IMG/VR virus record: IMGVR_UViG_3300003690_000059
Coordinates: 1-52,664 of that record
Length of the DNA stretch: 52,664 bases
Source: a virus
Direction: 5' to 3' (one strand)
Position 1 is the stretch's first letter. Every line of letters begins with the position of its first letter. Of this stretch, positions 23,164-38,551 are shown one piece after another. The notes beneath the pieces were generated by a model. That model was not told the DNA's origin. It saw only the letters and a program-made list of their open reading frames with translations, and did no database searches. Both the position numbers and the translations under genes were made by a program.

Positions 23164-24177
23164 TTACGCTGCGTCAGCATATTCCGTAGCTAACCCAAGA
23201 GCTTTCCTTTTGGTTGCCGCCCCCTGACCTAACCAACTTGAGTATAACGCTCCTCCGAGGATACGTTCGTTCTCACGCTTTTTATGGTCAATGAAGTAGG
23301 TTACTCCATTGAAAACTCCCCACCAAGTATCCTTTGCGGAACTTAAATCTGACCCAGGTGAGTTGTATATAGACTCATATACTTGGTCAGCGGTTCGAGA
23401 GAATTCGTCAGATAACGGCATGTCATTAGCGATTTCCATCTTACCGCGTTCAATGAGAAGTTTTGGTTGAAACAACTCAGCGACATAGTTCTGAACTTCT
23501 GTGTGCTTTGCTGTTCGGGAACTAAGGAATTCCGTTTGAATACGAAAATCTTCCATTAATTCAGAACTTATCCCTAGTGCTGTTTCAGCGGCCTTTATAA
23601 TATCACCATCAAAAGCCTGTAGGTGCAGTACCCTGAACTTGTTACCATCAGTGTTTAACGCCATAGCTATCGTATTAGCACAAACGACCCGTATAGGCGT
23701 AAACATAATAGTAAGGGCTATTCCTGAAACGTGGGGAGAATCAATTAGTAGATATCCTTCTACTTTATCTCCCCCAGCAAGTTCAAAGCTGCACTCAAGT
23801 TTTGCCAGCCCCCAAATATCTTGGCCATTCTTCAATGAACCTGCTGTTTCCATTTTCATATCCCCTGCCGATACAAACTTTTTGAAGAATTTAAAAGTAT
23901 CGGCATTTTGAAAAGGAACGTAGTCATTTCCACAAGCGGAAAGAACGGTATTATCTGAGTCCCTTACAATAAAGTAATGGCCTTCAGTTTGCATTACCGT
24001 AGTTTCATCTGACCATTCTGGGCTTGTGAGGGTATATGCAGGTCGTTTAGAAACGGTCCAATTTAAATCAGCCGCCTCTAACATTTCTTCAGGGGTCATA
24101 GTGTCCTCTACCGGAACCCCCAGGCCATGCCAAGGAACTCTCCCGGCATATGCCATAGTTTCAACTTGAGCACTCAT
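23164..24177 (-). CDS. DUF932 phage/plasmid-like protein
   Basis: 337 residues. The N-terminal VPWHGLGVPVEDTMTPEEML is the signature of the DUF932/TIGR03299 group of large phage and plasmid proteins; TPIRVVCANTIAMALN and DTWWGVFNGVTYFIDHKKR fit the rest of the family. Usual length about 330-350 residues, so complete. Its biochemical role is not established; association with anti-restriction and recombination loci has been noted. Starts with a GGAAAG site and ends at a terminator. Confidence 0.8.
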   Translation of the reverse strand: MSAQVETMAYAGRVPWHGLGVPVEDTMTPEEMLEAADLNWTVSKRPAYTLTSPEWSDETTVMQTEGHYFIVRDSDNTVLSACGNDYVPFQNADTFKFFKKFVSAGDMKMETAGSLKNGQDIWGLAKLECSFELAGGDKVEGYLLIDSPHVSGIALTIMFTPIRVVCANTIAMALNTDGNKFRVLHLQAFDGDIIKAAETALGISSELMEDFRIQTEFLSSRTAKHTEVQNYVAELFQPKLLIERGKMEIANDMPLSDEFSRTADQVYESIYNSPGSDLSSAKDTWWGVFNGVTYFIDHKKRENERILGGALYSSWLGQGAATKRKALGLATEYADAA

Positions 24178-25356: not shown

Positions 25357-27276
25357 TTATACCTGCATTTTACCGCTACCATTTTCAATACTACGTTGCC
25401 AAGGTTTATCTGTAAATATTGTTTTTGCCTCCCCCCAACTATTGCCATACTCAATATCAACTTGAGAAGGTACTTCAAGTTCGATACAATTTTCCATGAT
25501 CTCAGCTATTTCTTTGATTTCATTTGTATCTTTTGAAGAAAAACAAAGTTCATCATGTACCTGCAATAATGGAATCATACCCTTTTTAAAAAGAGCGCTC
25601 ATTGCTGCTTTTGTCTGATCTGCTGCGGACCCCTGTATTAAACGATTTAGAGCTTTATAGGTAAATGCTCTTTTTATATTGGGTCCAAATTCAGATTGGG
25701 CTTTTTCAAATTGTGCCAATTTACCTGTGCCGTATTGATGGGGTTCCCATAAATCAAAGCGACATTTACGACCAAGAATTGTGCGTATAGTTCCTTTGTG
25801 CATTGCCCTATTTTTACAATAATCACTTAACATTTTTACAAACGGAACTTTTTTATGATATCTCTGAAATAACTCACGAGCTTCATCTATAGAAATATTT
25901 AATTGGTCAGCTAATTTTTTTTCTCCCATAGAATAAAATAATCCAAGATTGATATCCTTGGCTTGACGACGTGGGATAGAAGCCATTTCAGCTACAATAG
26001 AATGGAAATCGGCTTTTCCCTCTTTATATGTTTTAACAACAGTATCAACTCCAGGAAGTTTCAAAAGCGATGCATAATGAACAACCAACCTTGGTTCTTG
26101 TTGGGAATAGTCAATTGAATACCATTGTTCATCTAATTCAGGGACAAAGATGGAACGAATTAAGGGTCCGAGAACTTTATGCCTTGATGGTATTTGTTGT
26201 AAGTTTGGATTACTGTAGCTGAAGCGACCCGATACTGTACCGCCTCTGTCAGAACGTAAAGAATGTATTTCTCCATGAATACGGCCATTACATTGATATC
26301 TTATAATAGAATCGATAAAAGTGGTATTTGATTTATTGAGTTCACGTGCCTCTAGTATCATTCTTGGAAGTTCATGAGGATGGTTTTGTAAGAATGCTCT
26401 ATCTATTTTAGGGGCTTGTGTTTTTTCAGTATAGTCATAAGTGATTTTTGCTTTATCAAATACTTCTGATATAGAGCGTGAATTCCAAATTTCAACATCA
26501 CGATTGTATTGTTTCTTTATTTTTTGTAAAATATTTTTTTCTCGTCTTTCCAGATCTTTTTTAATCTTTTCTGCTTTTTCAAGATCAACCCTTATACCTC
26601 TCCAACGCATTTCTATTAGTAACGGTATAAGTGATAGTTCTAGGTTTAGGATGAAATCTAAATCGTTTTTTTGAATTTCTCTTTTCAATACCTTCCAAAG
26701 TTCTAATGTAGCTTTAGCATCTTGCTCTGCGTATGGACCAACATACATGGCAGGAAGTTTCCACATTTCACCTTTAGCATCAATCCCCCATTCTTGTGCA
26801 GCTGCGCGTAAGATTTTTTCATCTTTTGAAGAAGCTATATAAGTTTTGGCAAGTGCATTAAGAGAATAGGAAAAACGATTTTCATCTAATAATGGGGCGG
26901 CAATTAAAGTATCTTTTATCTCACCTTTGACTTCGACCCCTTCGCGTCTTAACCAACCTACATCATACATCGCATTATGGAATACTTTGTCACAATCTGT
27001 AGACAATTGTTCTTTAAGCCAATTTAAAATTAAAGTGGGGTCTAAGTTGCTCCCGTTATCGTGCCGTATGGGAAAATACCCTGACCATCCATCTACCGCG
27101 ATTGAAATTCCAATAATATATCCATCATTGGTAGCCCATCCTGAACCTTTCGTTAAAAGATTAGGGTCACGAGTTTCAAGATCTATTGCAATACAGTCAG
27201 CGTTTTTTAGATCGGGTAGTGTTTCCGGTGGACACCACGGGCTTTCTGTTTGCAGTAGGGGGATTTGATAACTCAC
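25357..27276 (-). CDS. polA: DNA polymerase I (family A) with 3'-5' exonuclease
   Basis: 639 residues. Exonuclease: IDLET (D32, E34), HNAMYDVGWL (D105) and YAEQDAKAT (D186). Polymerase: RFSYSNPNLQQIP, motif A SIDYSQQE (D389), motif B RRQAKDINLGLFYSM (436-450) and motif C QVHDEL (D575). The residue equivalent to E. coli Phe762 is Leu444, and the Gly after the motif B Tyr is Ser449. The start is a GTG with GGGAG 6 nt upstream. No 5'-nuclease domain is present. It replicates the phage genome together with the primase and helicases upstream in the operon. Confidence 0.93.
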   Translation of the reverse strand: MSYQIPLLQTESPWCPPETLPDLKNADCIAIDLETRDPNLLTKGSGWATNDGYIIGISIAVDGWSGYFPIRHDNGSNLDPTLILNWLKEQLSTDCDKVFHNAMYDVGWLRREGVEVKGEIKDTLIAAPLLDENRFSYSLNALAKTYIASSKDEKILRAAAQEWGIDAKGEMWKLPAMYVGPYAEQDAKATLELWKVLKREIQKNDLDFILNLELSLIPLLIEMRWRGIRVDLEKAEKIKKDLERREKNILQKIKKQYNRDVEIWNSRSISEVFDKAKITYDYTEKTQAPKIDRAFLQNHPHELPRMILEARELNKSNTTFIDSIIRYQCNGRIHGEIHSLRSDRGGTVSGRFSYSNPNLQQIPSRHKVLGPLIRSIFVPELDEQWYSIDYSQQEPRLVVHYASLLKLPGVDTVVKTYKEGKADFHSIVAEMASIPRRQAKDINLGLFYSMGEKKLADQLNISIDEARELFQRYHKKVPFVKMLSDYCKNRAMHKGTIRTILGRKCRFDLWEPHQYGTGKLAQFEKAQSEFGPNIKRAFTYKALNRLIQGSAADQTKAAMSALFKKGMIPLLQVHDELCFSSKDTNEIKEIAEIMENCIELEVPSQVDIEYGNSWGEAKTIFTDKPWQRSIENGSGKMQV

Positions 27277-27423: not shown

Positions 27424-27825
27424 TTAAAGTCCGCGCTCAGGTGAATACCTGGTCCCCTCCACGCGGGTTCCTAGGGGGTTACTCCCCGGAACCCGCTCCT
27501 TCGCTTCAGGGGCCTCCTGAGGAGCTGCTAGGGCGAAACCGCCTAATTCTTTCCGTATTTCAGCCTCAACTAGGAATAAATAACGTCTCAGGTCTCCAAT
27601 ATCATCCAAAATCCCTTTAGGGGAAGGGTCGTCGTAGATTGCTTTAAAAATATCATAGTTAAATTTCTTAACTTGATTTTCAAGTCTGTCCCATTTACGG
27701 GCCAGCATCATAAATGCGCCAACTCCACCGCGTTTCTTCCAACTGTCCCCATAACTTTTTTGTGAACTTTCCAGTGCTTCTGCATCATAGAGGGCTACTT
27801 CTTCGACTTCTTGTTTAATTCCCAT
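27424..27825 (-). CDS. DUF1599/Nmad1-like protein
   Basis: 133 residues from the ATG at 27823-27825 (AAGGAA upstream). YGDSWKKRGGVGAFMMLARK, then WDRLENQ, and GILDDIGDLRRYLFLVEAEI match the order DYGdsW...K..Rl...DD..DL..Y of DUF1599, which Iyer and co-workers named nucleotide-modification-associated domain 1. A Gly/Pro-rich tail follows. It overlaps the ThyA-like gene by 31 nt, so it is co-translated with it. In this context a role in modified-nucleotide metabolism is plausible; activity is unproven. Confidence 0.6.
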   Translation of the reverse strand: MGIKQEVEEVALYDAEALESSQKSYGDSWKKRGGVGAFMMLARKWDRLENQVKKFNYDIFKAIYDDPSPKGILDDIGDLRRYLFLVEAEIRKELGGFALAAPQEAPEAKERVPGSNPLGTRVEGTRYSPERGL

Positions 27826-28940
27826 TTTTCTTTCCTTCTTTCTAACCATTCAACTGAGGCTTTCTTCCAGTCTAACGCTTTTACTTTTTCTAGCCTAGAA
27901 AGTCCTTCATCATATCGTTTTTGTTTAAATGATTGCCATGCTAGCAACATAGGAATTGCGGTCTCCTCAAAAAAGCTATTTTCGTAATAATGTGTTATCG
28001 GCGTATCAATAAATTTATTTACATCTTTGTCAATATGTTCTGGCGCAGAAAACATCGGCTCTGGTGTATAGTGCATTCCTTGATTCCACCCTAGATAAGA
28101 GTCATACCAAAGAGTACCTCCTGTATTTTTCTGATGCAATACATCTAACGCTTTATTATATACCTTTTCGTAAGCATGGTAGCTGTCGCTCAAGTGGTAG
28201 TATGTTCCAATGGGAACTCCCACTCTTGCCGCTATGTATTCTTGTAATATCGAGAAATGAACAGCGTTGGCTCCATATGTCCCCCAAATAATATCGTTAG
28301 ACCTGCAGGACACTGTCATCTGCAGCCTTCCTTTTCGTATCTTAAAATAAACTTGCGTGTTACAAGGTACATCTTTACAACTTGGGTTGTCTGTTGCCTT
28401 TAATAAATCTTCAGGCGACCACATTTGAAGAACTGCACGGCGCGAATCAGGTTCTTTCTTTAAATGCTCTACAATTAAATTAAGTTGATCCTTTGAAAAG
28501 TGTTCTCGCCACCTGTACCCGTAAGCACCGTGTAGAGAAATACCGTCGTCTGAAAAAGAACTTATATGAGAATTAAACTTAGAAACATACTCGACATCGT
28601 TTCTTCCAGCTAACATCCAAAAAGATTCAAACAAATGAAAAAAGGGATTAGCATCTCGAGACGGGTAAAACAAAACTCTTTCTTCTGGTCTTTTATAAAT
28701 ACTCATTACTGGATTAGGGGCTTCTATCACAAGTCCCGAACGCGAAGAACTCCAGGTGCCCTCTTTCTCTAAATATTGTAACCCAAGATATAGTGCTTCC
28801 GAGACATTCCTTGCGTATATATTCACTACCTCATCGTTCCCACGGGCGAGCGACTGCAGTAGTGTACGAGTCTCCCTTGAGGGCGTGTTCAATGTTCCGG
28901 AGATCGTCGCCAGTGGGTTCGCCATACTCTTCTTTCCCAT
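27795..28940 (-). CDS. ThyA-like enzyme (thymidylate synthase or dUMP hydroxymethylase)
   Basis: 381 residues. Core: FFHLFESFWMLAGRNDV, LHGAYGYRWREHF, PDSRRAVLQMWSPEDLL, catalytic Cys in DVPCNTQVYF (C193), RSNDIIWGTYGANAVHFS (N225, retained as in dUMP-using enzymes, not Asp as in dCMP hydroxymethylase) and LSDSYHAYE (H255, Y257). The WGTYGAN segment differs from the usual LGLPFN of cellular ThyA, as in phage 5-hydroxymethyl-dUMP makers. The start is uncertain: the ATG at 28938-28940 lies about 110 nt inside the upstream gene, and a GTG at 28826, just after that gene's stop with GAGG before it, would still keep the whole core. Confidence 0.82.
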   Translation of the reverse strand: MGKKSMANPLATISGTLNTPSRETRTLLQSLARGNDEVVNIYARNVSEALYLGLQYLEKEGTWSSSRSGLVIEAPNPVMSIYKRPEERVLFYPSRDANPFFHLFESFWMLAGRNDVEYVSKFNSHISSFSDDGISLHGAYGYRWREHFSKDQLNLIVEHLKKEPDSRRAVLQMWSPEDLLKATDNPSCKDVPCNTQVYFKIRKGRLQMTVSCRSNDIIWGTYGANAVHFSILQEYIAARVGVPIGTYYHLSDSYHAYEKVYNKALDVLHQKNTGGTLWYDSYLGWNQGMHYTPEPMFSAPEHIDKDVNKFIDTPITHYYENSFFEETAIPMLLAWQSFKQKRYDEGLSRLEKVKALDWKKASVEWLERRKEKWELNKKSKK

Positions 28941-29832
28941 TTTTATCAGGCAATAATCCAGGTCGATAGCTTAACGCATCACAACCATCGCAAGGCCCAA
29001 AGTCTCGTTGCCCATGATAAAGTTTCTTACGCGCTGCTTGAAAGGGGCCGTTTTGCCAAAGTTTTTCTATCGAAGAGTGGCCTAAAACATTACCGCACTT
29101 ATAGGTTCCTCGCCAATCGTTACAGCAAATAGCGACATTACCATCCCACCTTATAGATATTTCTCTAAATACTTTAGCACATCTTTTCCCTTGCCCCTTT
29201 TCATTAGGGGGGAAAGCTGAACCAGCGTGATTATTTAAAGTAGAATGATTACCTTGGCTGGCTGATTCAATATCTTGAACGATCACAATATCGTGTTGGC
29301 TGGGTTTACGTCTTCTATGGGGATTAGCCTTTTTGTTTAAAGGATATTCGAAAATACTAAAAGGTCCATCATATTTTTCTTTGACTTTATCACATATTTT
29401 TATTCTCTCGTAATTATCCAGTAAAAGAACATTTAATCCTCCAGTTAGAAGTTCATTAATATTTTCAGTTAAGTTTCCTCGCAATAATCCTGCACCATTG
29501 GAGGTCATTTGTAGGGGGGTATTTGGTAAATACGATCGGAATAGTTTCACAATTTCCTTATATTCAGGGTTAAGGGTTGGCTCCCCATGCATAGCCATTT
29601 CTATACGGGGGTTCCATTTATTTTCTTCACAAGCCTGTTTTATTTTTTTAGCAAGCGTTTCAGCATTCATATAAGAAAGGTGCTTATAGGGAGATGATCC
29701 TTTACCTGTTGTATTTTCTGGACCATTAGCCCCGTTATCTCTTATACCCGCGATGCCACAAAAAGAACATGCTAAATTACATCCCTCAGTAAGTTCTATT
29801 TGAATACAAAATGGAGGTGGTTGTTTGTTCAT
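28831..29832 (-). CDS. Radical SAM/SPASM-like enzyme
   Basis: 333 residues. CNLACSFCG gives the CX3CX2C cluster site (C18, C22, C25); MAMHGEPTLNPEY is the Gly-Glu SAM-binding strand; LQMTSNGAGLL follows. A C-terminal Cys set (RCAKVF, VAICCNDWRGTYKCGNV, GPCDGCD) matches a SPASM-type auxiliary cluster domain. It overlaps the glycosyltransferase gene by 4 nt. Radical SAM enzymes occur in phage thymine hypermodification clusters, where they rearrange or substitute the side chain; the substrate here is inferred from neighbours only. Confidence 0.85.
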   Translation of the reverse strand: MNKQPPPFCIQIELTEGCNLACSFCGIAGIRDNGANGPENTTGKGSSPYKHLSYMNAETLAKKIKQACEENKWNPRIEMAMHGEPTLNPEYKEIVKLFRSYLPNTPLQMTSNGAGLLRGNLTENINELLTGGLNVLLLDNYERIKICDKVKEKYDGPFSIFEYPLNKKANPHRRRKPSQHDIVIVQDIESASQGNHSTLNNHAGSAFPPNEKGQGKRCAKVFREISIRWDGNVAICCNDWRGTYKCGNVLGHSSIEKLWQNGPFQAARKKLYHGQRDFGPCDGCDALSYRPGLLPDKNGKEEYGEPTGDDLRNIEHALKGDSYTTAVARPWER

Positions 29833-30869
29833 ACGACAGCCCTTACATATCTTGCAGCTATTCTAACTGCATCATGTTTAACCAAAAGTTTCACACTATT
29901 GCTTCTTATAAAAGTTGATAAATGCTGTTGTATTTTTCCTCCTAGAAAATTAGCTACATATTTCCAGTCAGAAAAAGAAAGGCAATTTTGATTTTCCCCT
30001 GTATCCTTCATAGAGTCGTTCCGCCTAATCCAATTTTTATGTAAAAGACAAATAGTTCCTGCATCAATAGCTTCTAAGAAGGTATATTGAGTACCACCGC
30101 CATCACCTTTGATAACTGAAAAATCAGTCATATAACGCGCAGTTTTACAAAGATCAATAGCCCCTCTAAAATCTAATTTAAAAATAGCCCGATCTTCCTC
30201 TAAACGATCACTATCTTGTACATACTCAGGGTACTTAGGAACTATCCTAGTTTTCGTATACATTCTATTTTCAGAGCCACGAATAACTATTTGTTTATTT
30301 AGGGGAAGCTTTCTGTTGGCCTCAAATAACCAATGACTATTTTTATCAAAATCTAAACGAGAAATACTTATGGCATTTAATGGCCTATCATCCCATTCTT
30401 TGAAGTCTAATGGATCTGTTCTATTTAGAGCCATATATGGATGGGGGATATAAGTAGCCTCGGGCATGTGTTTAAGCATTGATTTACGAATAACAATCAC
30501 TTGTTTAGGATCTATAAATTCTCGAAATTCAGGATTGCGTAATTCTGTAGGATCGTGAATAACTATATAGGCTCCTTGCTCAAGAAGTTTCATAGCTAAT
30601 TCACGATGATGTTTATCAAGAGCTGTTATGAGAATTGGCTCTTCAATCTCAAAAACATCTTCTTCGCACATATTTCTGTAGGGGACGTAGTTTCCCATGT
30701 CTCTTTGAGTTTTTTCACTGCGCCCAGTAATTCGAACCACTTCATGGACTTCAGAAGTTTGAAAACGATCATGGGAAGTAGGCGGTCTGCCTAAAAGTCC
30801 ATGGTATAAGTGACTTGTAAATGTTACCCATCCCCCATAGCGCGACCTACTTAGGTACAGCAGTTTCAT
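29829..30869 (-). CDS. GT-B fold glycosyltransferase-like protein
   Basis: 346 residues. N-terminal YLSRSRYGGWVTFTSHLYHG; linker and C-terminal Rossmann unit AISISRLDFDKNSHWLFEAN, KQIVIRGSENRMY, and GDGGGTQYTFLEAIDAGTIC, which has the Glu-x(4)-Gly-type donor-binding turn of GT-B enzymes. GGAG lies 9 nt before the ATG. Being inside the base-modification block, it is a candidate DNA-base or modified-nucleotide glycosyltransferase. The exact family and sugar donor cannot be told. Confidence 0.7.
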   Translation of the reverse strand: MKLLYLSRSRYGGWVTFTSHLYHGLLGRPPTSHDRFQTSEVHEVVRITGRSEKTQRDMGNYVPYRNMCEEDVFEIEEPILITALDKHHRELAMKLLEQGAYIVIHDPTELRNPEFREFIDPKQVIVIRKSMLKHMPEATYIPHPYMALNRTDPLDFKEWDDRPLNAISISRLDFDKNSHWLFEANRKLPLNKQIVIRGSENRMYTKTRIVPKYPEYVQDSDRLEEDRAIFKLDFRGAIDLCKTARYMTDFSVIKGDGGGTQYTFLEAIDAGTICLLHKNWIRRNDSMKDTGENQNCLSFSDWKYVANFLGGKIQQHLSTFIRSNSVKLLVKHDAVRIAARYVRAVV

Positions 30870-30904
30870 CCCAGCTTTCTCCGCTCCATTGCTCCTAGTG
30901 AAAA

Positions 30905-31774
30905 TTAGGAAGGCGAGTATTTGGACCTTGGTTGTCCTTGTCCATTTCTCACCCTTTCATATTTATCAAATTCACATAAACTGTGTTCAATTTCCCTCAG
31001 TTCAAGCTTGTTTGGGTGCTCGTCTTTTAGTCCAAATTTATTTGAATATTTACTCGAATATTTAAAATGTTCATCAGATTGTTGCAATAGTTCACGCATC
31101 TCTTTACACCAATCATGTCTTTTTGAGGTGTACTCTAAAGGACGATCATATATTCTATTTAAGCCGCGCATGGCTCCTGGACCTGCGTTAGCCCATGTAA
31201 GAAGATCATTGGCCGTTTCACCAATATAAGTATGTCGTAAATCAGTGGCTATTTCATAAGCTAAAAATGGCCCAAAAAAAGGATAACCTTCCAGGTAGTT
31301 TGTCATTTTTTCTATGGATTGCCAAGGACATTTATCCAAAAATCCTTGTCTGTAGTTCCAAACAGTCGTTATCGTTTGACAAATACCCCTTACCTTATTT
31401 TTACCTGTGGGGCTTTTTATCATATACGCCCCTGTTATCCATTTCTTCTGAGGAGTTATTACCTCATAGGCTTTTTTAGGGTCCCATTCTTTTATCAGAT
31501 TATGGGCAATTAAAGTTTCCCCTGTTTCAATTAAATTGAACCAGCGAAATATAATTGTCGCCATATATACATCACTACTGTCCTTTAATGGTCCACGAAT
31601 ATTCTCACGGAACCAAACAGTAGTTTTGTCATTTTCTCGGAAAGCGTTGGTGAACTTAAATTCTCTAAGAATTTTATCTTCAGTCCAGGGCCAAGGGTCT
31701 CCTCGATCTTTTTTAATTTGGATGAGCGTTCGTTCGTTCATCCAATAAAAAAATCTTTCTACACTTTCTTGCAT
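30905..31774 (-). CDS. aGPT-Pplase/HMUDK-helical-like base hypermodification protein
   Basis: 289 residues. GDPWPWTEDKIL (25-36), EFKFTNAFREND (38-49), GPFLAYEIATDLRHT (168-182) and TWANAGPGAMRGLNR (193-207) follow the all-helical, HhH-glycosylase-related superfamily that includes the alpha-glutamyl/putrescinyl-thymine pyrophosphorylases and the helical part of 5-hmdU DNA kinases. These act on pyrophosphorylated 5-hydroxymethyl-uracil in phage DNA. No P-loop kinase domain is fused here. The family call is from memory of the motif order. Confidence 0.72.
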   Translation of the reverse strand: MQESVERFFYWMNERTLIQIKKDRGDPWPWTEDKILREFKFTNAFRENDKTTVWFRENIRGPLKDSSDVYMATIIFRWFNLIETGETLIAHNLIKEWDPKKAYEVITPQKKWITGAYMIKSPTGKNKVRGICQTITTVWNYRQGFLDKCPWQSIEKMTNYLEGYPFFGPFLAYEIATDLRHTYIGETANDLLTWANAGPGAMRGLNRIYDRPLEYTSKRHDWCKEMRELLQQSDEHFKYSSKYSNKFGLKDEHPNKLELREIEHSLCEFDKYERVRNGQGQPRSKYSPS

Positions 31775-32138: not shown

Positions 32139-33632
32139 CTATAAAATAAATGCACGGGAGGTTGTGGGCTGTATAATATGTAAGTTTTCTTTTACCCTGG
32201 TAAGAGCCACATAGAAAACTCTTATTTCATCATCAGGGTCTTTTTGCATCTGCAACCAACTTTTTTGACCTATGTCTGTTAATACAACTACGTTATCGGC
32301 TTCGCTTCCTTTAGCACCGTGAATAGTCGATATTTTAATTCTAGGCTCTTTTGTAAACTTTTCTCCGCGCCGTAAACAAGCAATCAAATATTGTTTCTCT
32401 TTATCAGACACTTTATCGAAGGCTTCGTGCCAGATTGCCATAGTTAATAATCCATACGAAGAAGAAAGATCTTGTATATTAACAAGTGTATCATCAAATA
32501 TGGCCTTAAGACCTTTATGAGATTTAGAAACCCCTTTATCAGCAGTCATGTATTTATAGATATTTCTTACTTGAGCAATAGTAATTTTTCCTTGTTTTCT
32601 TAGTTGCTCCCAATCTAAAATAGCGTTTAGCAGTAGTTCTGAAACACTTTTCCTATTGTTTCTTTGATAAAAAAATCCCTCCAACCGACATTGTTGTTCA
32701 ACAGTAGAGAGCATATAGTTGTTTCGGGCCAGTATTAACCATTGCCCTTTCCGCATATCAATGTGTTCAATATTAGTATGCCAATACAACTTGCCCTCTC
32801 TTGGTTGTGGCTTCCAAAACTTTTCGCGTCTTCTTGATATTCTTTTAACTAGGGAATCTGCTAAATAGTGAGCATGCTGGGGTACACGATATGATTGATC
32901 TAAAATTTTCAAATTCCCCTCAAGCGAAAGAAAGTGATCTACATCTGCTCCTGCCCATCTAAAAATAGCTTGATCATCATCTCCGGCAATATATGTATAC
33001 TTTGATTTTTCCTGTAGTTTATTGACAAGTTGCCATTGTAGAAAACTTAAATCCTGTGCTTCATCAATAAAAATAACGTCTAAATTTGGGGCTACATCTT
33101 GAGTCACAAATAAAGAGAGCATGTCAGTAAAGTCATACAAGTGTCTCTGTTTTTTAAATTCTGATAAACCTCTTTCAGCTCTATCCACTTCATACCAACT
33201 AATATCTAAATTATCTTTTAACCATTGGCTGTGTGCACTTACCCCCCGTACCCTAGCAACTTCAATAGTGCCAAGTATTTGATCCCCCTTCTTGGAAAAA
33301 GCAAAAGAGCCTTCTTCAAAAGAAGATTTACCAGTTATTTGAAGACCCATAATATCTCCAAACTCTTTTTTCTGGTCTTCGTTAAAAACTTGTGAACGAC
33401 TCAATCCTAGTTGTTGAAAAGCCAAACTATGCAAAGTCCGAAAAAAAGGAAGATCATCAGAATCAAAGTTAAATGTATCATACGCTCTTTCCTTTGCTTC
33501 GTTGGACGCTCTATTTGTAAAAGCAAAATACCCAATTTTATCTGGTGGTATGCCCTCTTGAACATGCTTTTCTACTAACGAAAGCAGTTGTGATGTTTTA
33601 CCAGTTCCTGGAGGCCCAATGATAATATTCAC
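32139..33632 (-). CDS. UvrD/Rep-like superfamily 1 helicase
   Basis: 497 residues. Motif I GPPGTGKT (6-13), Ia FTNRASNEAKERA, II IFIDEAQDLS, III YIAGDDDQAIFRWAGA, IV LDQSYRVPQ, V ISTIHGAKGSEAD and VI VFYVALTRVKENLHI are all present. It is a 3'-5' type DNA helicase, smaller than UvrD (about 720), so accessory subdomains are reduced. GTG start overlapping the primase stop as GTGA. It would unwind DNA at the fork with the primase and PolA. Confidence 0.9.
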   Translation of the reverse strand: MNIIIGPPGTGKTSQLLSLVEKHVQEGIPPDKIGYFAFTNRASNEAKERAYDTFNFDSDDLPFFRTLHSLAFQQLGLSRSQVFNEDQKKEFGDIMGLQITGKSSFEEGSFAFSKKGDQILGTIEVARVRGVSAHSQWLKDNLDISWYEVDRAERGLSEFKKQRHLYDFTDMLSLFVTQDVAPNLDVIFIDEAQDLSFLQWQLVNKLQEKSKYTYIAGDDDQAIFRWAGADVDHFLSLEGNLKILDQSYRVPQHAHYLADSLVKRISRRREKFWKPQPREGKLYWHTNIEHIDMRKGQWLILARNNYMLSTVEQQCRLEGFFYQRNNRKSVSELLLNAILDWEQLRKQGKITIAQVRNIYKYMTADKGVSKSHKGLKAIFDDTLVNIQDLSSSYGLLTMAIWHEAFDKVSDKEKQYLIACLRRGEKFTKEPRIKISTIHGAKGSEADNVVVLTDIGQKSWLQMQKDPDDEIRVFYVALTRVKENLHIIQPTTSRAFIL

Positions 33633-35134
33633 AGTACTTCTTCGCCAAAACTTGGCAAGTTAAAGGGATCTGTTTGAGAATCAAAAGATGGTATTCCCCA
33701 TAAATTTACGAACCGACCCTTTATATTAACCCCCGAGTGAACCGCATCCAAATCTCTAAGACGAGCAGTTATTTTGGGCCTTGAAAAATATCTGAAGTTA
33801 TGTCTTTGTAAATACGCTTCTAAGTCAGATAACCTGAAAAAAGTTTGGTTATCCTCTGTGAACGGCTTACCTAATAAAATTTCTTCTTTAGTTTGAGCCT
33901 GTGCCCTATCAGTGCAAAAGACCTCAACAAGATCAAGAAACTGACCTTCAATAGAAGCATCTTTGGGAACATCAATAATTGTTACATTGTCTAATAGATT
34001 TTGAATAAGCCCCTGCCACGCTCGTTCGCTCATTTTAGGTGGCATCTTATTGATTGCTTCCATACAAACTCTTTGAAATCTAGTTTGGTTTTGAAGATCT
34101 TCAGTTGACATTTCTAAACGATTGACCTCAACATCAAGAAACCAAACAGGTGGATTTGAGTTTTGTTTTGTTAGCGATCCAAAAGAAGGAATTGCCGCTG
34201 AAGGGGAAATACCGTACTTGCGAGTTTTACATAATCCCGAATTGCAATGACTGCAAATAGGTTGGTCATTACATTTATAGTTATAATCTTTGGTACGGAG
34301 TTGTTTAATAATTGTTAGCACTTCACTTGCAGCTAAAGGTGGTGAAAGAAATTCACGGTTATACTCTTCCATTTTAGTTTCCCAATTATCTGGGTTAGAT
34401 AATTTAGCGTAAATTCCCAAATTAAACAGTCCATTGTTTCTTGTCCCTAATGGAAATCCTTCAGTTATTAAATGTTGAAGACAGGGGGGTCCGTCTTTTA
34501 AAGATTTAGTAGTTCCTTTGACAGATAAATTTTCGAGGTTCTTTATACTGAGGGCATAACTATCAGCAAGATCCAAAAATTGTTCAACGGAATTGACTTC
34601 CCCTTCTTTATCTAAAGAATAACGAGTGGTTTTATCACCTCCAAAATACGGTAAGTTTAGGAAATTTCCAGTATCACCGCGTTCCGCTAATATTTGAGTT
34701 TGTTTAGGAAAAATTTCATGTGAAGCCATACCTAAAGAAGCTGCAACCTCAACTAACTTTAGCCGCATTGTTGCAGCAGGTACAAATTCAGTTGTGAAAA
34801 GAAAAATATGCGCTCCCCCTGATTTACTACGACAAAGAATCAGGGGGAGCTTCTTTTCTTGTATTTTTGAGTTTAGTTCCTTTAGGTTTATAGAAAAATC
34901 ATCAACATCTATACAGCCCCATTTACAGGCATTATCGTCAGTTATGGGGATGATGCCCAGGGATGGCTCTTCGCCGTCGAGGTGCTTTTCCCATAATTCG
35001 GGTACGGGTTTACCTCTTTGAACCCTTGATGCAACCTTCTTTTTACCGTCCTCTCTCAGTCCGATAATTTTGGTTGTTCCGTAAGCTCGATCTTGGCCGG
35101 AAAATCTTTCTATAAACCTCTCTAAGACAGTCAT
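33629..35134 (-). CDS. AEP/TOTE-type DNA primase
   Basis: 501 residues. WGCIDVDDF gives the metal-binding DxD (D76, D78) of the archaeo-eukaryotic primase superfamily, and RSKSGGAHIFLF gives the conserved His (H109); LNLPYFGG and TTRYSLD follow as in TOTE-like primases. A PriCT-like helical region and a four-Cys knot (CNDQPICSHCNSGLC) come next, then a C-terminal winged-helix-like part. No helicase domain is fused; the separate UvrD-like gene follows with a 4-nt overlap. Confidence 0.82.
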   Translation of the reverse strand: MTVLERFIERFSGQDRAYGTTKIIGLREDGKKKVASRVQRGKPVPELWEKHLDGEEPSLGIIPITDDNACKWGCIDVDDFSINLKELNSKIQEKKLPLILCRSKSGGAHIFLFTTEFVPAATMRLKLVEVAASLGMASHEIFPKQTQILAERGDTGNFLNLPYFGGDKTTRYSLDKEGEVNSVEQFLDLADSYALSIKNLENLSVKGTTKSLKDGPPCLQHLITEGFPLGTRNNGLFNLGIYAKLSNPDNWETKMEEYNREFLSPPLAASEVLTIIKQLRTKDYNYKCNDQPICSHCNSGLCKTRKYGISPSAAIPSFGSLTKQNSNPPVWFLDVEVNRLEMSTEDLQNQTRFQRVCMEAINKMPPKMSERAWQGLIQNLLDNVTIIDVPKDASIEGQFLDLVEVFCTDRAQAQTKEEILLGKPFTEDNQTFFRLSDLEAYLQRHNFRYFSRPKITARLRDLDAVHSGVNIKGRFVNLWGIPSFDSQTDPFNLPSFGEEVL

Positions 35135-37108: not shown

Positions 37109-38551
37109 ATGCAAAACTATAGATTCCGAATTAAACCATATGAGCACCAACGAGTTGCTTTGGGTGCAAGTTGGGACAAAGAAGAATTTGCCTACTTCAT
37201 GGAAATGGGGACAGGTAAGTCAAAAGTTCTGATTGATAATATTTCAATCTTATATGATAATGGCCATATTGATTCTGCACTTATTATTGCCCCAAAGGGA
37301 GTCTATAGAAATTGGGTTGAGTCAGAAATACCTAAACACATACCCGATCATATATATCATAGAATTATAGCGTGGGTGCCAAACCCTAATAAAAAAGAAA
37401 AAGAAGAACTGATCAGCCTTTTTGAAATCACCCCTGATCTCGTATTTTTCGTAATGAATATTGAAGCATTTAGTACAAAGAAGGGGACAACTTTCGTTGA
37501 GAAATTTCTACTTTCTCATAATGCCCTTTTTGCCATAGATGAAAGTACATCAATAAAAAACTCTAGTGCACGAAGAACGAAAGCTGTGACAAAACTTGGC
37601 AAAATGGTCAAGTATAAAAGAATTCTTACGGGACTCCCGGTAACTAAATCCCCCCTTGATCTGTACAGCCAGTGTGCTTTTCTCAGTGAAGATTTGTTAG
37701 GGTTCAGCTCATTTTATTCTTATAAAAATCATTTTGCAATTATTCAAAAAAGATCTGTTGCCACCCATAGTTTTCAACAAATTGTAGGATACAGAAATCT
37801 AGAAGAATTAAAAGATTTAGTTAAAAACTTTTCTTATCGGATATTGAAAAAAGATTGTCTTGATTTACCAGAAAAAACATATTCTATTCGTACTGTTGAA
37901 TTAACAAAAGAACAAAAGAAAATCTACAGAGAACTACAAGATTATGCTCTCGCTGAACTAGGAGATTCTGAGATAGTAACAGCGGCCTCCGTCATCACTC
38001 AAATACTAAGACTACAGCAGGTGGTGTGCGGTTTTGTTCGTTCAGATCAAGGAAAAGTTCTAGAAATTCCCAGTAACCGTATAACCGAACTTTTATCTAT
38101 TTTTGAGGAATTGGATAATAAATGTATAATTTGGGCAAACTACCAATACGATATTCGTAAAATTGAATCTGAAATAGCCAAGATCTATGGCCCAACTTCA
38201 GTAGCTTCTTACTATGGAGAAACCCCCCCTAAAGAACGACAAGGTATAGTCAGTCGTTTTCAAGACCCAGACTCTGAACTTCGATTCTTCATAGGTCAGC
38301 CCAGGACTGGTGGATTTGGGCTTACGTTAACGCAAGGAACGACAGTTGTCTATTATTCAAATAGCTATGACCTTGAAACACGCCTTCAATCTGAAGACAG
38401 AGCGCACCGTATAGGGCAGGAGAATAAAGTTACATACATAGATCTATGTGTACATAAAACAGTTGATGAAAAAATAATTAAATCACTTCGATCAAAAATT
38501 AATATGGCAACTCAAATTCTAGGAGAGGATTATAGAAAGTGGCTACTTTAA
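37109..38551 (+). CDS. SNF2-family (SF2) helicase
   Basis: 480 residues, the only plus-strand gene. Motif I MGTGKSKV (33-40), II DESTSIKN (DEST in place of DEAH/DEGH), III LTGLP, V GGFGLTLTQGT and VI QSEDRAHRIGQ. Phage SNF2-like proteins are dsDNA translocases, thought to act in replication, recombination or remodelling. Weak AAGAAAG before the ATG. The 3' end overlaps the convergent lysin gene by 4 nt, leaving no room for a terminator between them. Confidence 0.9.
   Translation: MQNYRFRIKPYEHQRVALGASWDKEEFAYFMEMGTGKSKVLIDNISILYDNGHIDSALIIAPKGVYRNWVESEIPKHIPDHIYHRIIAWVPNPNKKEKEELISLFEITPDLVFFVMNIEAFSTKKGTTFVEKFLLSHNALFAIDESTSIKNSSARRTKAVTKLGKMVKYKRILTGLPVTKSPLDLYSQCAFLSEDLLGFSSFYSYKNHFAIIQKRSVATHSFQQIVGYRNLEELKDLVKNFSYRILKKDCLDLPEKTYSIRTVELTKEQKKIYRELQDYALAELGDSEIVTAASVITQILRLQQVVCGFVRSDQGKVLEIPSNRITELLSIFEELDNKCIIWANYQYDIRKIESEIAKIYGPTSVASYYGETPPKERQGIVSRFQDPDSELRFFIGQPRTGGFGLTLTQGTTVVYYSNSYDLETRLQSEDRAHRIGQENKVTYIDLCVHKTVDEKIIKSLRSKINMATQILGEDYRKWLL

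Follow-up and report, generated by a model that had tools for sequence, protein, structure and literature searches.

What kind of base would be made by a phage locus that carries two components of the known thymidine hypermodification systems, a ThyA homologue and the helical protein HMUDK_hel, together with a glycosyltransferase (GT) and a radical S-adenosylmethionine (SAM) enzyme, and in which the 5-hydroxymethyl-deoxyuridine (5-hmdU) DNA kinase and the amino acid:DNA transferase (AADT) are missing? This question is raised by a five-gene block at positions 27424–31774 of an IMG/VR virus contig of 52,664 bases (IMGVR_UViG_3300003690_000059), the whole of which was analysed and is referred to here as the window. 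On balance, the block is probably a thymine-replacement DNA-glycosylation cassette, in which 5-hmdU would be glycosylated directly and the sugar then oxidized or epimerized by the radical enzyme.

Gene content and conservation of the five-gene block

The five open reading frames that a first-pass annotation had described as adjacent, on the same strand, and overlapping or closely spaced were all found as described. They lie on the minus strand, in the transcript order HMUDK_hel (31774–30905), GT (30869–29829), radical SAM enzyme (29832–28831), ThyA homologue (28940–27795), and a small protein (27849–27424). The same genes are present in the same order in five near relatives, as far as their contigs extend (viral records or loci compared with the window are labelled L plus a number, e.g. 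L004). Protein identities between the window and these five relatives are about 51–76% across the block, including 69–74% for the GT, 68–72% for the radical SAM enzyme, and 51–65% for the small protein. Because order and content are kept, the block is not a chance arrangement.

The product of 29829–30869 (minus strand; 346 aa) showed no Pfam match of any kind, and at most two of the 37 members of its family match any single Pfam GT model, and weakly. Its AlphaFold (AF2) model, which was built from a 37-sequence alignment and has a predicted local distance difference test score (pLDDT) of 92.6 and a predicted template modelling score (pTM) of 0.91, indicates a two-Rossmann GT-B fold; the proposed GT-B identity was thus borne out by structure prediction. 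Foldseek matches include HepE (8.7e-10) and T4 α-glucosyltransferase (α-GT; 2.6e-8, TM 0.64), and complexes of T4 α-GT with DNA containing hydroxymethyluracil are also among the top matches. All 37 members share R171, K176, H105, D106, E109, H143, and Q261; position 266 varies only between E and D, E266 being near-invariant. The H105–D106 pair was aligned with H114–D115 of T4 α-GT in two alignments. The enzyme is predicted to be retaining and to act on DNA. A sequence search of the PDB found nothing, and the protein does not match PF20691 (TAGT). Assignment to either the T4 α-GT or the TAGT family was ruled out on sequence, and only an analogy of fold to T4 α-GT stays.

The radical SAM enzyme (28831–29832, minus strand; 333 aa) matched Radical_SAM (PF04055, 2.1e-8) and a SPASM-type domain (PF13186, 2e-9). 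A profile of 36 family members matched BtrN with E = 3.1e-26, whereas the next solved enzyme scored 1e-6. BtrN carries out the two-electron oxidation of an aminocyclitol hydroxyl and has a single auxiliary cluster with four cysteine ligands (PMC9012708). The core cysteines C18–C22–C25 (CX3CX2C) and C218, C236, C281, and C284 occur without exception in the 36 members; all four auxiliary-cluster cysteines align with those of BtrN, C218 and C236 corresponding to BtrN residues 169 and 187 as counted along the alignment. Cysteines for the second auxiliary cluster of a full SPASM domain were not found: outside the core only C218, C236, C237, C281, and C284 are invariant, and none follows C284. The radical SAM/SPASM assignment therefore stands for the core and for the SPASM-type profile match but not for a full SPASM domain, the auxiliary domain being of the BtrN-like (twitch) type. 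In the genome collection this family gave only two good matches, both on contigs of Patescibacteria metagenome-assembled genomes, versus 75 viral loci. A profile of the ‘photolyase-like’ radical SAM protein of phage M6 matched nothing in the radical SAM/HMUDK_hel loci, and by these profile comparisons the window enzyme is BtrN-like and unrelated to the M6 protein. A second radical SAM protein (~420–476 aa) is encoded close to the first in L108, L113, L117, L127, L129, and L132, some of which are TET/JBP loci.

The first gene (30905–31774, minus strand) encodes an all-helical protein of 289 aa that matched PF18723 (HMUDK_hel, or aGPT-Pplase1) with E = 6.6e-48, above the cut-off, in agreement with the aGPT-Pplase/HMUDK-helical identity initially given to it. 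Its AF2 model has a pLDDT of 90.4. Residues R15, R46, D49, R77, F170, D178, G198–P199–G200, C267–E268, and K271 are invariant, and equally so in the kinase-type, GT-type, and methyltransferase-type relatives compared. Because the same residues are kept in all three classes, including those without a kinase, HMUDK_hel is not a decayed remnant. The fold is weakly matched by helix-hairpin-helix (HhH) DNA glycosylases (MjaOgg, probability 0.87; viral EndoIII, 0.84) and by AADT (probability 0.98); a profile–profile comparison with AADT was not significant, and a sequence search of the PDB with HMUDK_hel yielded nothing. The resemblance to HhH glycosylases is consistent with base flipping, although it is not proof of it, and the protein is a predicted DNA-binding or base-presenting partner. 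Although its fold is contained in the 637-aa 5-hmdU DNA kinase of SP10, a kinase label for the window protein was dropped, since the P-loop protein of M6 is the product of a separate gene that matches PF18748. PF18723 represents the helical partner only and not the kinase.

The ThyA-family gene (27795–28940, minus strand) encodes a predicted dUMP 5-hydroxymethylase and matched PF00303 (Thymidylat_synt, 2e-22). Its ATG at 28940 lies 110 nt within the radical SAM gene and the M6 homologue aligns only from approximately residue 37; translation may in fact begin near 28829. The protein is of the type found in M6 (gp58, 5.8e-96) and PaMx11 (gp51, 2.5e-89), and the nearest solved structure is the CMP 5-hydroxymethylase MilA (1.6e-23, compared with 4e-14 for thymidylate synthase). 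C193, R213, S214, and D216 (Arg-Ser-x-Asp) and the uracil-type Asn (N225) are kept, the last as had been noted. Because MilA ranks ahead of thymidylate synthase, the M6 and PaMx11 proteins match, and the Cys, Arg-Ser-x-Asp, and Asn residues are present, hydroxymethylase activity on dUMP is likely but not proven. The last gene (27424–27849, minus strand) encodes a conserved 141-aa protein that has no Pfam match and lies between ThyA and the family A DNA polymerase (PolA) in near relatives; S36, G41–G42, R51–K52, D54–R55, and D86-L-R-R-Y90 are invariant. The DUF1599/Nmad1 identity proposed for it was rejected, because PF07659 (DUF1599), with controls positive, found nothing in the window at a threshold as loose as E ≤ 10 and matched 0 of 23 members of the small-protein family.

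Tailoring genes in HMUDK_hel loci and the surroundings of the block

In M6, gp54 is the 5-hmdU DNA kinase (PF18748), gp55 is HMUDK_hel (PF18723), and gp51 is the AADT (PF18724). Neither the window nor any of 31 related viral records, 19 of which exceed 50 kb, has a match to PF18748 or PF18724, whereas M6, PaMx11, and Kuttervirus maane were positive for both profiles and L214 was positive for AADT. Classical P-loop motifs in the window are confined to the helicase. Since both enzymes are absent, activation as in M6/ViI cannot be taken for granted, and an M6-type route was dropped as the default. In M6, PaMx11, and many other RefSeq records of phages, the label ‘terminase small subunit’ is given to the P-loop protein that matches the 5-hmdU DNA kinase family (L007:8393–8956; M6 gp54).

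In total, ~100 distinct HMUDK_hel loci were compared (neighbourhood counts are single-linkage clusters). A radical SAM gene and a GT gene are present in 37 of them (two also with FkbM), a class I methyltransferase occupies the same slot in 55, and the rest comprise five loci with GT and FkbM, one with GT alone, one with kinase/AADT, and two that are cut off. A GT-like gene was found in all 37 distinct viral loci that contain both the radical SAM gene and HMUDK_hel, directly adjacent in 34 (36/36 with another de-duplication key), and none of these loci was matched by profiles of the M6-type kinase, AADT, pyridoxal phosphate (PLP)-type enzyme, or radical SAM protein. The GT slot is filled by non-homologous proteins: the GT-B family of the window, TAGT (PF20691, matched by 22 of the 23 members), or another GT-B-like family, for which Pfam support is weak. 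Outside these loci, the GT family of the window is directly beside a TET/JBP dioxygenase gene in 25 of 27 cases, and the radical SAM family occurs in seven TET loci; ParB-like genes are also near in the TET/JBP clusters. No locus contained TET and HMUDK_hel together. A gene combining CTP_transf_like with a mannose-6-phosphate-isomerase-type cupin is present in three near relatives and the cupin alone in one; neither is present in the window or in L004. A 260-aa protein encoded next to TAGT and the radical SAM enzyme (L096:6214–7005; L113:7213–7995) looks sulfotransferase-like by eye and has no Pfam match.

On the HMUDK_hel tree, the radical SAM plus GT label must have changed five times or more across well-supported branches, which suggests repeated exchange of the tailoring modules around HMUDK_hel. 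Some branches are long and individual placements are thus unsure, and the labels are slightly blurred, L143, L149, L161, and L166 standing in the methyltransferase group though they carry GT and FkbM, and L022 being counted as radical SAM plus GT though its radical SAM gene was undetected. In the ~55 distinct HMUDK_hel and ThyA loci of the methyltransferase type (L140–L213, e.g. L173:7144–7995), a class I SAM methyltransferase gene (Methyltransf_23/11) directly precedes HMUDK_hel, replacing the GT and radical SAM genes, and the kinase was not detected in these loci either; a methylated 5-hmdU system is possible. L143, L149, L161, and L166 encode HMUDK_hel, an FkbM-type methyltransferase, a 445-aa GT-B-like protein, and ThyA, a combination that suggests an O-methylated sugar.

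The five-gene block is flanked by PolA and by a UvrD-like helicase/primase pair, all encoded on the minus strand: PolA at 25357–27276 (PF00476, 3.2e-62), a UvrD/Dda-like helicase at 32139–33632 (PF00580, 7e-29; phrog_1967, 2.8e-80), and a primase at 33629–35134 (phrog_21866, 5.8e-94). PolA also matched the NCBIfam model of the aminoadenine-incorporating polymerase DpoZ (9.7e-98), yet its 328 bits fall well short of the cut-off of 500 bits. Elsewhere in the window, an SNF2-type helicase gene at 37109–38551 lies on the plus strand, opposite to its neighbours, and has a weak, below-cut-off match to Zorya ZorD, and a DUF932 protein (23164–24177; 2.2e-40) is kept in many relatives within the same phage group. 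Promoter and terminator scans gave numbers no different from chance.

Proposed chemistry and competing explanations

The first-pass annotation had predicted a glycosylated or rearranged 5-hydroxymethyluracil made by an uncharacterized combination of enzymes. Homology, synteny, and structure prediction speak for the core of this prediction; it has to be modified in that the kinase and AADT are absent, the radical SAM enzyme is not of the M6 type, and the DUF1599 assignment is unsupported. From homology, we infer that the ThyA homologue would make 5-hydroxymethyl-dUMP, which would enter phage DNA via the neighbouring PolA. HMUDK_hel may then bind or present 5-hmdU in DNA, and a kinase step would be unnecessary, as the kinase and the amino acid transferase are both absent. 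The predicted GT-B enzyme, probably a retaining one, would move a sugar from a nucleotide-sugar to the hydroxymethyl oxygen in the manner of T4 α-GT on 5-hydroxymethylcytosine (5-hmC). Finally, the BtrN-like enzyme would abstract a hydrogen from the DNA-linked sugar to give a keto-sugar or an epimer. Phage DNA would end up with a modified glycosyl-oxymethyl-uracil, which may shield it from host nucleases. In some relatives, an additional nucleotidyltransferase–cupin gene may serve to supply a special donor sugar.

The constant pairing of the BtrN-like enzyme with a GT in HMUDK_hel loci points to sugar chemistry. A single radical SAM family is associated with GTs of several unrelated families and with two different hydroxymethyl bases, and its nearest solved relative oxidizes a sugar-like ring; for these reasons a sugar is the presumed substrate, and the interchangeability of GT types suggests that the sugar is the common element. 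It is tentatively proposed, with less confidence than the cassette itself, that a virus-specific radical SAM sugar dehydrogenase/epimerase edits DNA-attached sugars in both 5-hydroxymethyluracil phages and TET/5-hmC phages.

Several points weigh against direct glycosylation followed by sugar editing. The link between the cassette genes and a modified base is a computational prediction. The acceptor cannot be read from likeness to GT-B folds, the best Foldseek matches of the GT are mostly GT4 enzymes that act on non-DNA substrates, and the sequence profiles of the GT and T4 α-GT are not significantly similar (hhalign probability 0.3%; no match in a second search). The substrate of BtrN is a free aminocyclitol and not a nucleic acid. 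The order of GT and then radical SAM enzyme is a guess, sugar editing before transfer being possible, and three loci (L019, L062, and L022) contain a GT gene and HMUDK_hel with no radical SAM gene detected. The kinase of PaMx11 itself scores just E = 9e-5 on the profile, which leaves some room for a kinase too divergent to be recognized, and the window and its relatives may be incomplete contigs.

The competing explanation that survives best, although we regard it as rather unlikely, is that the radical SAM enzyme edits the donor while this is still a free nucleotide-sugar or sugar phosphate, the edited sugar then being placed on 5-hmdU in DNA by the GT. The use of a free cyclitol by BtrN and the sugar-nucleotide-type genes (CTP_transf_like and cupin) of the relatives are in its favour, but the several unrelated GT families paired with the same radical SAM enzyme would then all require the same edited donor, and the radical SAM family is nearly restricted to viral DNA-modification loci. 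It is improbable that the enzyme instead rearranges the base substituent itself, like the tailoring enzyme of M6, and that the GT then adds a sugar to the product. A radical SAM gene annotated as DNA repair photolyase does neighbour HMUDK_hel in M6 and Rhizobium phage RHph_I72, and Lee and co-workers are said to have described radical SAM isomerases in thymidine hypermodification in 2022. However, the present loci contain no match to the M6 radical SAM profile, no amino acid would be attached where AADT is missing, and the same radical SAM enzyme is found with TET systems too. Phosphorylation of 5-hmdU in DNA by an unrecognized kinase, followed by displacement by a nucleophile as in the M6/ViI route, is slightly more improbable again: the HMUDK_hel fold forms part of the SP10 kinase, and the HMUDK_hel gene of M6 and PaMx11 comes immediately after that for the P-loop kinase, but the kinase and AADT were missing from the window and all 31 related records with working positive controls, and no classical P-loop was found outside the helicase. 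A very improbable alternative is that the GT and radical SAM enzyme have a virion protein or a host glycan as their target and that their place in the replication operon is incidental. Most GT4-like enzymes do use small molecules, lipids, or polysaccharides, but the GT and radical SAM genes stand tightly and repeatedly next to HMUDK_hel and ThyA in a diversity of phages, and next to TET/JBP in further ones.

If direct glycosylation of 5-hmdU and radical sugar editing do take place, a DNA base is made outside the characterized routes. HMUDK_hel and ThyA look like a hub for plug-in tailoring chemistries (kinase/amino acid, GT/radical SAM, GT/FkbM, and methyltransferase), a view that raises the directly testable question of what HMUDK_hel does where there is no kinase. 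Such new sugars on DNA would, moreover, offer fresh targets to modification-dependent restriction and a source of new enzymatic tools.

Comparison with known modification systems

No description of glycosylation combined with radical sugar editing was found in the literature searched, although metagenome surveys within the primary thymidine-hypermodification papers could list the same combination. HTVC023P-type pelagiphages carry genes for thymidylate synthase and aG/PT-PPlase1 close to PolA, in some cases accompanied by a PF20691-type glucosyltransferase (PMC9599517); the main text of that paper mentions no radical SAM enzyme and gives no mechanism, and the window GT differs in being a GT-B protein that does not match PF20691. 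In T2 and T6, the PF20691 enzyme adds a second glucose onto glucosylated 5-hmC (PMC13216743). Phages SP-15 and YerA41 carry sugars on a thymine-derived base (PMC5977210, PMC9023294), but the SP-15 gene cluster, with UDP-glucose dehydrogenase and teichoic-acid-type genes, is unlike the window, and a word search of the two papers did not find radical SAM named.

In T4, a ThyA-family dCMP hydroxymethylase feeds DNA-acting GTs of the GT-B fold, α-GT being among the top fold matches of the window GT, and the genes for β-GT, the hydroxymethylase (gene 42), and the polymerase (gene 43) lie near one another. T4 differs in that the base is cytosine, HMUDK_hel and a radical SAM enzyme of the window type are lacking, and α-GT has no significant sequence similarity to the window GT. 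The TET/JBP–glycosyltransferase clusters of phages contain the same GT-B and radical SAM families, beside TET/JBP and ParB-like genes, but there a dioxygenase, not ThyA, makes the hydroxymethyl group, and does so on DNA. BtrN (2-deoxy-scyllo-inosamine dehydrogenase) shares the CX3CX2C core and the four aligned auxiliary cysteines with the window enzyme, but is a bacterial antibiotic-pathway enzyme that acts on a free aminocyclitol. The thymidine-hypermodifying Pseudomonas phages M6 and PaMx11 share the ThyA homologue, HMUDK_hel, and PolA with the window, in the same order and with similar sequences. Both carry the 5-hmdU DNA kinase and AADT, together with PLP-type and radical SAM enzymes in M6 or FAD-type and acetyltransferase enzymes in PaMx11; the window has none of these and contains the GT-B protein and the BtrN-like radical SAM enzyme in their stead.

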